Assembly (NCBI GenBank): GCA_002898355.1
Contig: BEHD01000001.1
Coordinates: forward strand, 116,680 to 180,679
Origin: an archaeon HR01
Lineage (GTDB): Archaea; Thermoproteota; Nitrososphaeria_A; Caldarchaeales; Caldarchaeaceae
Reading direction: 5' to 3'
DNA: 64,000 bases
Numbering within the stretch: position 1 is the first letter of the stretch; each line of letters opens with the position of its first letter. Of this stretch, positions 46,665-50,321 are shown piece after piece. The notes beneath the pieces are model-generated. The model searched no databases and was not told the origin of the DNA. It was given only the letters and a program-made list of their open reading frames with translations. The position numbers were made by a program, and so were the translations under genes.

Positions 46665-47827
46665 GGCCCTCCCTCCTCCCTTTCATCCAGCAGAGGGGTC
46701 TTAAGATATCTAGGGCTGAGGGCCAGTATGTCTGGGATCAGGAAGGCCGCAGATACCTCGACTTCTACATGGGGTATGGGGCAGCATTCCTCGGCCACCG
46801 CCACCCTAAGATAGTGGAGGCCCTAAAGGAACAGCTAAGCAAGTTTATGACTGTTACACCTGCCTTTGAAACCGATGTGCGGGAGAAATGCTTAGACCTG
46901 CTCGGAGAGATATTGCCCGTGCACCTTGACATGGTGTATTTTCTCAATAGTGGGTCGGAGGCCAACGAGCTAGCCCTCAAGATTGCACGAAAGATTACTG
47001 GGAGGAAGAAGATACTGGCCTTCATCAACTCTTTCCACGGACGCACACTGGCCACCTTAGGTGTCACATGGAACCCCAAATACCGGGAGGGCTTCGACCC
47101 CTTCCCATACGAGGCCACATTCACTCCTTACAATAATGTGGAGGCTGTGGAGAAAGCCCTCAATGAAGAGTATGCCGCGGTTATTGTGGAGCCTGTACAG
47201 GGTGAGGGTGGAATAATCCCTTCCACCCCCGAATTTCTCAAGGCCCTCGAGAGAAAATGTAGAGAATGTGGAGCACTTTTAATAGTCGACGAGGTGCAGA
47301 CAGGTTTTGGCAGGACAGGGTATATCTGGGCCCATCAAAAGGCGGGTATAAGGCCGGACATTATGGTGGCTGGGAAAGCAGTTGGAGGAGGCTTTCCAGT
47401 CAGCTTTGTGGCAGTGTCGGGCGAGGTGGGCGAGAACTTGAAGGAGGGTGATCACGGCTCAACCTACGGGGGGAACCCGCTCGCCCTCGCAGCGGTTTCC
47501 GCAGCAGTTGAAGTCCTTATCTCTGAAAATATCCCCGCTCAGGCAATGGAGAAGGGTTCGGCCCTCAGTGAAGCTCTTAAAACAGTTTTGGAGGAGAACG
47601 GCAAGATTTTCAGGGGTTTGAGATCCGAGGGCCTCATGATAGGGATGGATATGAGGAGTACGCCGGGCCCGTTTATCAGGCTCCTCCAGAGCAAGGGGCT
47701 TCTCGCATTCAAAGCAGGGTTAACAGTACTCAGATTTCTACCCCCCTATCTCATTACAGAGCGTGACATAGTAGATGCCGCCGAGATTTTAAGGAATGCG
47801 GCCTCAGAATATGAGGTAAGGGCTTAG
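46661..47827 (+). CDS. lysJ: [LysW]-aminoadipate semialdehyde/glutamate semialdehyde transaminase
   Basis: A 388-residue class III PLP aminotransferase of the ArgD/LysJ group. Evidence: [36 protein letters not shown], and the PLP Lys in [17 protein letters not shown]. It aminates the carrier-bound semialdehyde to lysine or ornithine. It overlaps lysX by 4 nt and the convergent P-loop gene by 4 nt. Confidence 0.93.
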
Positions 47828-49172
47828 TCCTTAATCAGCCCATATCTGTCCAGGATGTCTCTTAGAAGGGTCTGTCCGAAATCGTCCAGCTCATACCGCA
47901 CCCGGTAAACAGGCTTGTCCACCTTAACTATCCTAGTGATGTCTGTGGGCGTCCCTGAAACTATGGCATCGCATTTAACCCTCAACAACGTCTCCTCCAG
48001 GTCCCTGACCTGTCCGCTGGTATATCCCAGCGCCGGCACCACCTTACCTATGTGGGGGTAGGACTTGTAGGCTTCGGCTATAGAACCCACGGCGAAAGGC
48101 CTGGGGTCAACTATTTCTGCTCCAGCCTTCATGGCTGACATATATGCTATCCCCCAGCTCATACCTCCATGTGTGACGGAGGGGCCGTCCTCCAACGCAA
48201 CAACTTTCAAGCCAGACAGCTTCTCTAACCCTTCCCCAGCAACCCTGGTGCCAGCGGTCATAATAGCCGCATCTGGGTTGTGGTTCATGATAACAGACTT
48301 TATTGCGTCTATGTTGGCTGGAGGCGAAGTGTCTGCCTTGTTGATGATGAAGAGGTCTGCATTCATGAGGTTTACGATGCTCGGATAATGGGTTAGCTCT
48401 TGACCAGGCCTATGGGCGTCGAGGACCATTATCCATATGGTGGGTCTTATGAAGGGGAAGTCGTTATTGCCCCCATCCCAGACGATAACATCGGCTTCAC
48501 GCTCGGCCTCCTCCAAGACCTTTGCGTAGTCAACACCGGCATAAACTACATTCCCCGCCTCTAGATGTGGTTCATATTCTTCCCTCTCCTCTATCGTGCA
48601 TTCATACCTGTCCAAATCTTCATATTTTTCGAATCTCTGAACAACCTGCCTCTCCAACACGCCGTAGGGCATAGGGTGACGAATCACAACAGCGTTCACA
48701 TTCTCCTCCTTGAGAACCCGCATCACGTAGCGGGTTACCGTGCTTTTGCCGGCCCCAGTTCTAGATGCTGTCACCGCTATTACAGGTTTCCTTGCCTCCA
48801 AGAATGTAAAACTGGGCCCGAGTAGCATGAAGTTAGCCCCAGCCACCATGGCCCTAGAAGCTTTCTCCATCACCTCCTGGTGGGAGACGTCGCTGTATGA
48901 GAATACGGCTAGGTCGACCCTCTTCTCCCTTATGACATCCTCCAAGAGTTTTTCAGGGTATATCGGTATTCCCTGAGGATAGAGGCTTCCTGCGAGACTT
49001 GCTGGATATGTTCTCCACTCTACACCCGGTATCTGGGCTGCGGTGAAGGCCACCACCTCATATTCTGGGTTGTCTCTAAAGAAGACGTTGAAGTTGTGGA
49101 ATTCGTGGGGTATCTATCCTATACCCTATCACGTCCAGCGGCTCCCATGATAACAACCCGCCTCGGTCTCAT
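47824..49172 (-). CDS. Cyclic 2,3-diphosphoglycerate synthetase-like P-loop protein, interrupted by a 26-nt intron-like segment
   Basis: The gene is best read as two exons on the minus strand: 49172-49128 (15 codons, MRPRRVVIMGAAGRD) and 49101-47824 (425 residues, starting FHNFNVFFRDNPEYE), 440 residues in total. The unspliced frame from 49172 meets a TAG within the 26 nt 49127-49102, and the downstream frame has no plausible start that includes the conserved N-terminus. Joined, the two parts give GRDFHNFN, which is typical for this family. The Walker A SRTGAGKST falls at about residues 128-136. Relatives include cyclic 2,3-diphosphoglycerate synthetase, which makes a thermoprotectant in methanogens; many archaeal homologues have no proven role. 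Only 63 nt separate it from the lysK start. Confidence 0.85.
49102..49127 (-). other. Predicted 26-nt bulge-helix-bulge intron in mRNA
   Basis: Read on the minus strand, the boundaries form a complete BHB motif. The outer helix is UGGA (49137-49134) with UCCA (49100-49097). The central 4-bp helix is CGUG (49133-49130) with CACG (49107-49104). The 3-nt bulges are AUA (49129-49127) and AAU (49103-49101). The inner helix is GGGUAU (49126-49121) with AUACCC (49113-49108), with a 7-nt loop. Cutting after the second base of each bulge removes exactly 49127-49102 and rejoins codons GAU and UUC in phase 0. The segment contains an in-frame TAG and is not a multiple of three. Confidence 0.85.
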
Positions 49173-49235
49173 ACATTGATGGGGCAATACCTAAAATGTA
49201 ACTTTTTAACCATGAATCATAAGACGGAAAGACAA

Positions 49236-50321
49236 ATGTATGCCCTGGACCTAGATAGGGACCTAGCGGTTACGACGCTCGTCCAGCTGCTGGAGGTATA
49301 CACCCCGCCGGGTGAGGAGAGGAGGCTGGAAAGAACCTGGAGTAGGATTTGCATGGCTCTGGGCTATAACAAGTTCTGGAGGGATGAGGTGGGGAATTTC
49401 TTCGCATCCATCGGCCGTGGCGGCCGGGCCATATACCTAGTCAGCCATGTGGACACAGTTCCGGGCGAGCTGAGAGTGCGGGTTTCTGAGGGAAAGATAT
49501 ACGGTAGAGGCGCTGTAGACGCCAAAAGCTCAGTAGCGTCGATGCTTCTAGCAGGCCACATCCTACACAACAGACTCCAGAACTCGATGCTGGTGGTAGC
49601 TGGGTTGGTGGATGAGGAAAACCGTGGGCGGGGGGCCAAGAAGCTCGTGGATGAAGGTATCAGCGCAGACCATATCATCATAGGAGAGCCCACAAACCTC
49701 GTAGGCGTGGCCACGTCCTACCGGGGTAGCATCAGTATAAAAGTCAGAGCCACCGCCAAAGGCGGCCACAGCTCAGCTCCATACATGGCAGAATCGGCCC
49801 TAGAGAAGATTCTCAACCTGTGGAGCCAAGTGAGGCAGGAATACAATGGCTCACGCTATGAAGAGATAACGTCAGCCCTTACAACACTTCACGGCGGGGA
49901 CTGGGCCAGCCGTCTACCCGATACAGCCGAGGGGACGATAAACATACGATTCCCACCCCCATATGTGTCCAGCAATATCTTGGAGAAGCTGAACGAGTAT
50001 GCAGCCCGATATGATTGTAGGCTGGAACTTCTGGATGTCACAGAGCCGGTGTCAGTGAACGCTTCAAACCCTGTAGTCAAGGCGTTAATCAGGTCGATGC
50101 TGCGTCTCGGCCTCAGACCCAAGATAGTTAAGAAGACAGGGACCAGCGATATGAACACTCTCTACAATATCACCACAAGTATTGCCGCGTGCGGTCCGGG
50201 CAACTCACTGCTAGCCCACACTGAGGGAGAGTTTGTTACGGTGGAGGATTTGCTTAACGCCGTCAAAATATATGCGGGAGCGGCTTTGGAGTTGGACAGA
50301 CTCAGCCCAGCAGACGGCTGA
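49236..50321 (+). CDS. lysK: [LysW]-lysine/[LysW]-ornithine hydrolase
   Basis: 361 residues from the ATG at 49236, chosen because the T-rich TATA-like stretch at 49203-49209 lies about 28 nt upstream; in-frame starts at 49176 and 49212 exist, but the first would leave almost no divergent promoter. An M20 metallopeptidase: the metal ligands are in IYLVSHVDTVPG, GRGAVDAKSSVASML, GLVDEENRGRGAKKL (catalytic Glu-Glu) and IIIGEPTNL. It releases lysine or ornithine from LysW. It is separated from the lysJ cluster by the intron-bearing gene. Confidence 0.9.
   Translation: MYALDLDRDLAVTTLVQLLEVYTPPGEERRLERTWSRICMALGYNKFWRDEVGNFFASIGRGGRAIYLVSHVDTVPGELRVRVSEGKIYGRGAVDAKSSVASMLLAGHILHNRLQNSMLVVAGLVDEENRGRGAKKLVDEGISADHIIIGEPTNLVGVATSYRGSISIKVRATAKGGHSSAPYMAESALEKILNLWSQVRQEYNGSRYEEITSALTTLHGGDWASRLPDTAEGTINIRFPPPYVSSNILEKLNEYAARYDCRLELLDVTEPVSVNASNPVVKALIRSMLRLGLRPKIVKKTGTSDMNTLYNITTSIAACGPGNSLLAHTEGEFVTVEDLLNAVKIYAGAALELDRLSPADG

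Follow-up and report, generated by a model that had tools for sequence, protein, structure and literature searches.

A candidate bulge-helix-bulge intron in the coding sequence of a cDPGS-like gene of the archaeon HR01 (Caldarchaeales)

Introns of the bulge-helix-bulge (BHB) type have been described in the cbf5 pre-mRNA of Desulfurococcales and Sulfolobales, with lengths of 16–44 bp in the accessible text of that report (PMC2738675). A study published in 2020 presented a case in a 5′-UTR, and the available part of that study names the cbf5 mRNA as the only additional archaeal BHB intron reported (PMC7714728). As far as we found, cbf5 is the only archaeal gene for which a BHB intron within coding sequence has previously been reported. 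The (alpha-beta)2 splicing endonuclease has a broad substrate range, according to the accessible part of a review (PMC6379350).

In this study, we analysed a 26-nt insert in the gene of a cDPGS-like P-loop protein, which a preliminary description had read as a BHB intron and had held to be undescribed at such a short length in this gene. No report of an intron in the cDPGS-like gene was found in the literature consulted, which was mostly non-subscription, and an earlier mention is possible. On this literature, the novelty with respect to the gene stands, but 26 nt is not unusually short, as shown by the published cbf5 range in the accessible text of PMC2738675 and by the 13-nt intron in cbf5 of the same genome.

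The interrupted gene, its fold and its product

The window, a stretch of 64,000 nt, sits in contig C1 of a draft genome of 1.76 Mb in 32 contigs. The cDPGS-like gene runs on the minus strand from an ATG at 49172 to a stop ending at 47824, and is flanked by a class-III aminotransferase gene and an M20-peptidase gene, both on the plus strand; argininosuccinate lyase and synthase genes are located near it. The unspliced frame from the ATG reads MRPRRVVIMGAAGRDRV and terminates after 17 codons at the TAG inside the insert. Deletion of the 26 nt yields a 440-aa protein in which GAAGRD-FHNFN is joined and which reaches the stop ending at 47824. The 26-nt insert between the cDPGS-like exons is a confirmed observation: the coordinates originally given are exact, the in-frame stop is present, the reading frame is broken, and removal restores GRD-FHNFN through a joint that keeps the frame in all five genomes with an insert. 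The features are listed in Table 1.

Table 1. Positions and properties of the features discussed (window coordinates unless a contig is named)
Feature	Position	Strand	Details
Exon 1	49128..49172	-	ATG at 49172; 15 codons, MRPRRVVIMGAAGRD; ends GAT
Predicted BHB intron	49102..49127	-	26 nt; in-frame TAG; predicted cuts 49128/49127 and 49102/49101
Exon 2	47824..49101	-	Starts TTC (FHNFNVFF); 425 codons + stop
Segment around the BHB aligned across five genomes	49087..49143	-	Given as 59 bases; alignment A1
BHB, outer helix to outer helix	49097-49139	-	Inside the aligned segment 49087..49143
Insert lengths in the five genomes			Source genome 26, G002 27, G005 27, G007 24, G006 23 nt
BHB-like cbf5 intron of the source genome	G000:C22:15955-15969 (L116)		13 nt

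The base pairs of the BHB are as the preliminary description gave them: an outer helix UGGA/UCCA, a central helix CGUG/CACG, bulges AUA and AAU, and an inner helix GGGUAU/AUACCC with a 7-nt loop, all Watson-Crick and contained in the minimum-free-energy fold of a 61-nt segment. Two 3-nt bulges on opposite strands flank the 4-bp helix, as in introns of the cbf5 kind, and cuts after the second bulge base restore the conserved frame in all five genomes. At its end, exon 1 supplies the 5′ sides of the outer and central helices as well as two nucleotides of the 5′ bulge, and the start of exon 2 supplies the final nucleotide of the 3′ bulge and the 3′ side of the outer helix.

The fold energy of the 61-nt segment is unremarkable (z −1.81), with 8 of 200 shuffles folding equally well or better. 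Strict BHB shapes occur twice in the window on both strands, and ten single-strand shuffles contained three, so that about 0.6 are expected for both strands. An all-Watson-Crick BHB, defined by an outer helix of 4, a central helix of 4, an inner helix of at least 5 and an intron of 18–40 nt, was found at two of 20,010,460 position-length pairs in 436,354 bases of the source genome; one is the cDPGS-like site, and the other, L140:11502-11530, was rejected as an intron, sitting within an unbroken open frame. BHB shape alone was discarded as evidence, being too common in relaxed scans and shuffles. The rarity lies in a BHB placed at exactly the bases that homology demands, not in the BHB shape itself. 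The earlier argument that the agreement of structure and homology makes chance unlikely is upheld in that form, and does not extend to fold energy or BHB shape taken alone.

The host protein was compared by fold and sequence. The two best fold matches of the model of an intron-less homologue are Methanothermus fervidus cyclic 2,3-diphosphoglycerate synthetase (cDPGS) 8oru and 8ork (Foldseek E 4.2e-18 and 3.0e-17), at about 15% identity over the fold and a TM-score of about 0.5 over the chain. A weak sequence match to the deposited cDPGS 9sxb (E 4.7e-6) covers one stretch, and a cobW (Pfam) match is slightly below its cut-off. The 410-aa exon-2 frame matched no NCBIfam family. For the cDPGS-like identity first proposed, cDPGS provides the best fold matches and a partial sequence match, but at about 15% identity. 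We use "cDPGS-like" as a label only, taken from this distant relation, for a protein whose enzymatic role is putative. Homologues are often named "cyclic 2,3-diphosphoglycerate synthase", a name used in some databases, and "GTPase" in other records, and the former name may cover a broader GTPase-like family. Homologues of the protein were also found in many bacteria.

Relatives, covariation and codon selection

The cDPGS-like gene was found in seven of the eight family genomes searched, and in five of these seven an insert of 23–27 nt that contains an in-frame stop occupies one and the same codon boundary. Four of the carriers, namely, G002 (a single contig of 1,680,938 bases), G005, G006 and G007, form one genus, different from that of the source genome. 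The insert is absent from two gene-bearing family genomes of a third genus, including G001, in which the sole stop reported inside the match is the gene's own stop at its end. When 44 genomes of the order were searched, the insert pattern matched five, once each and at the five known sites, and a backwards control matched none.

Alignment of homologues with and without the 26 nt had been suggested as a check in the preliminary description, and its outcome agrees with the proposal. By alignment count, 104 of 110 homologous loci (30 of 37 matches plus the best 80 of 592 relatives, at least two records seemingly being counted twice) are uninterrupted across the site, five have the insert, and one is ended by its contig end; the rows of the seven matches without a locus show no inner stop. 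Insert-free homologous genes thereby exist, as for introns of the cbf5 kind. The motif GAAGRDFHNFN is invariant in 23 aligned homologues, and FHNFN has variants such as FHVFN among the wider homologous loci. In view of this invariance and of the 104 loci that read through, the interruption probably does not reflect the real structure of the gene. An assembly or sequencing error, for which the draft state of the genome in 32 contigs might speak, has a negligible probability in our judgement, given that four other assemblies hold different inserts at the same boundary with the pairing preserved.

Pairing is retained in 94.3% of the cells of the five-genome alignment, and falls to 34–54% when partners are slid by 1–3 columns. 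Four pairs changed on both sides, compared with a shuffled mean of 1.2, and the value of 4 was reached by 1 of 500 shuffles; the covariation score was reached by none of 500. The compensatory changes affect three inner-helix positions and the central helix, where UA is replaced by CG in G006. G005 and G007 each have an outer helix of 3 bp and lack one inner pair, and unconstrained folding gives the BHB in three of the five genomes. The covariation appears good but not overwhelming, coming from five sequences, four of them from one genus.

Codon use on both sides of the joint bears on whether the gene is in decay or has its true start further downstream (GTG 49056, for example), with the upstream part as a relic. 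Database proteins are indeed called in this manner, as in the 410-aa P0001, which is without the upstream part. Over the last 11 codons of exon 1, pairwise differences among the five genomes are 40 synonymous to 18 non-synonymous in frame, and 5:48 and 0:50 in the other two frames. From this selection, translation of exon 1 appears to use the very frame that runs on into exon 2 once the insert is gone, and codon-level selection in the five genomes extends to the opening codons of exon 2. The predicted structure of the intron-less P0021 (mean pLDDT 91.4) places the joint at the start of the first helix (its first two residues), right after the first strand, and a protein started at GTG 49056 would be missing this strand, this helix and a portion of the second strand. 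Codon-level selection in both exons, the invariant motif across the joint and the structural loss make a downstream start very unlikely.

Lengths of 27, 27 and 24 are multiples of three, and those of 26 and 23 exceed a multiple of three by 2; hence no single readthrough or frameshift rule serves all five genomes, and removal does. Another translational explanation is that the ribosome bypasses the 26 nt through hairpin-aided take-off after GAT and landing before TTC. Known bypassing, such as that of T4 gene 60, has a general layout with a hairpin and a nearby stop codon that the locus resembles, and the first two bases (GA) of the take-off and landing triplets agree in all five genomes. Nevertheless, these triplets are cognate (both Asp) in only two of the five, the landing triplet being a Glu codon in three, including the window, and bypassing makes no use of the exact 3-4-3 geometry of the BHB. 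The accessible text of PMC8037382 limits established recoding in Archaea to Sec/Pyl readthrough and one −1 frameshift. We consider bypassing highly improbable.

The remaining alternative is a remnant of a self-splicing or homing intron. Homing introns often sit in highly conserved motifs, and such a motif is interrupted here, but 23–27 nt leaves no room for a ribozyme or an encoded nuclease. No Rfam intron family was matched over 48600–49600, where the sole match at E up to 1 is MAT2A_D (E 0.17), below its gathering score and on the other strand. An origin of this type is scarcely credible.

The history of the BHB intron was examined using a gene tree, on which two changes of intron label are needed and the intron-bearing copies are not all grouped. 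After five metagenome proteins were added, a single clade of intron-bearing and likely intron-bearing genes is not rejected (AU p 0.318); the history may have been one gain with loss or two gains. The metagenome proteins P0002, P0004, P0005, P0006 and P0010 (66–82% identity) are called from VVAFTAAQ or MAFTAAQ, like the window's own. P0003 (71%) starts with MPHDFHNFN, in which PHD is the translation of the 3′ end of the insert in G002 and G005. The genes of P0002–P0006 and P0010 are likely to be further intron carriers.

Splicing genes, cbf5 and scans for further introns

Two EndA-domain genes are present in the source genome. The product of one matches tRNA-splicing endonuclease chains nearly over its full length (3p1z_B, E 9.2e-50), and the second gene is a diverged paralogue (best match 5x89, E 8.5e-27); the two products would represent the catalytic and structural subunits. 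Two EndA genes occur in seven of the eight family genomes and one in G007. RtcB was detected in seven of the eight, and that of the source genome is split over contigs C27 (G000:C27:5435-7834) and C6. As with introns of the cbf5 kind, the host thus has genes for two putative endonuclease subunits and for RtcB, the latter in pieces.

Several observations were made beside these genes. RtcB, the likely exon ligase, holds an intein in G002:C1:46552-49290 (L161:6552-9290; Pfam Intein_splicing, E 1.1e-12), and the same kind of gap in the RtcB match occurs in G005 and in the source genome. In the intron-less G001 (C10:8082-10036) and G004 (C81:740-2684), the cDPGS-like gene adjoins the second EndA-domain gene in divergent orientation; in the source genome the two are on different contigs. 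The 23S rRNA match of the source genome spans 4,697 bases against a model of 2,987 positions (L135:6703-11399; G000:C1:26703-31399), and a further match to the end of the large-subunit model lies 1.9 kb downstream (L135:13299-13434; G000:C1:33299-33434), a span and separate end piece that suggest large rRNA introns.

The cbf5 gene is interrupted by BHB-like introns at the published site in all eight family genomes (loci L113-L120), with lengths of 13, 14, 14, 14, 14, 23, 22 and 21 nt. The 13- and 14-nt introns are below the published range in the accessible text of PMC2738675. Across the order, the same break was found in 27 of 44 genomes, with 14 unbroken and 3 unscorable, according to a table reading in which the DNA was inspected for eight.

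A search for BHB motifs inside broken reading frames, proposed in the preliminary description, was run on about a quarter of the source genome (436,354 bases, made up of the window and other stretches totalling 372,354 bases). The relaxed scan gave 2,032 frame-restoring candidates, 74 of which reach a pair score of 11 with an inner helix of at least 4, and three score above the cDPGS-like site. Two further requirements, closure of both frames near the junction and attainment of a minimal coding score, left 213 candidates, among which the cDPGS-like site ranked first. Three relaxed-scan candidates were individually inspected: the runner-up, L148:11201-11223, was rejected as an overlap of two adjacent membrane-transport-type genes, L147:14214-14266 as the natural end of a 657-aa gene, and L140:11502-11530 as noted above.

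A collinear scan gave 3,877 relaxed BHB candidates joining open frames, including 229 whose two flanks were found in collinear order within 400,000 bases of G002. Ranking was limited to candidates for which G002 has either a matching BHB at the corresponding position or a seamless joint; of the 28 rows listed, 14 are in L135. The cDPGS-like site had the top pair score of 14 (15.3 in G002), followed by cbf5 with 13.3 (12.3 in G002), and all others scored 10.9 or less, the next at 10.9; the stretches of both genomes were hand-chosen and include both known sites, so that the scan tests ranking rather than genome-wide discovery. When the ORFs of about a quarter of the source genome were compared with 400,000 bases of G002 in both directions, two split matches were obtained, and both were judged spurious frames, one in L135, the stretch with the 23S rRNA gene, and the other apparently antisense. 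The proposed search placed the cDPGS-like site and cbf5 on top, and no further protein-coding intron was established in this quarter of the genome by the split-ORF search and the collinear BHB scan.

Proposed splicing and comparison with known BHB introns

With a probability of about 0.93, we consider the 26 nt to be a BHB intron in the cDPGS-like mRNA, whose predicted removal by the splicing endonuclease and rejoining of the exons would give a 440-residue protein. A BHB intron in coding sequence, as originally proposed, is the best reading in view of the comparative and codon evidence, the endonuclease genes and the cbf5 intron in the same genomes. We infer that splicing acts at the RNA level. 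The transcript would fold, as predicted and supported by covariation, in such a way that exon bases make up the outer helix and one strand of the central helix. In each 3-nt bulge, an (alpha-beta)2 splicing endonuclease would cleave behind the second base, and an RtcB-type ligase would join the GAT end of exon 1 to the TTC start of exon 2, thereby giving GAAGRD-FHNFN. An unspliced mRNA would give a 17-residue peptide, and any regulatory role would be speculation.

If true, this would be a second coding-sequence intron, located in an unrelated gene and kept through divergence in two genera, and protein genes other than cbf5 could acquire and retain such introns. The origin, persistence and expression control of BHB introns would become testable with two introns per genome. 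It is conceivable, though doubtful, that endonuclease-type splicing is a routine part of protein-gene expression in these archaea, with the unrelated Cbf5 and cDPGS-like enzyme both needing it in the same cell. Gene callers shorten such proteins, as in P0001 and its relatives, which constitutes a blind spot; other cases may therefore hide among archaeal genes labelled "truncated" or "frameshifted".

The BHB introns of archaeal pre-tRNA and pre-rRNA share the motif with the cDPGS-like intron and probably the same enzymes; they differ in that here a messenger is interrupted and removal restores a reading frame. The intron of Haloferax HVO_1309 is likewise an mRNA intron with a flanking BHB, but it lies in the 5′-UTR rather than in coding sequence, and was demonstrated by circRNA-seq and in vitro cutting in the accessible text of PMC7714728.

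The closest counterpart is the cbf5 intron. For cbf5, spliced cDNA is known, whereas the cDPGS-like intron is predicted from DNA sequence. The cDPGS-like intron falls between codons and that of cbf5 within an Asp codon, and the former has a canonical BHB with a full inner helix, whereas most cbf5 structures are called unconventional in the accessible text of PMC2738675. The two are alike in being short, in coding sequence and of the BHB type, in their expected cleavage between bulge bases two and three, in interrupting an invariant motif, and in occurring in a lineage with a hetero-oligomeric endonuclease (PMC2738675).
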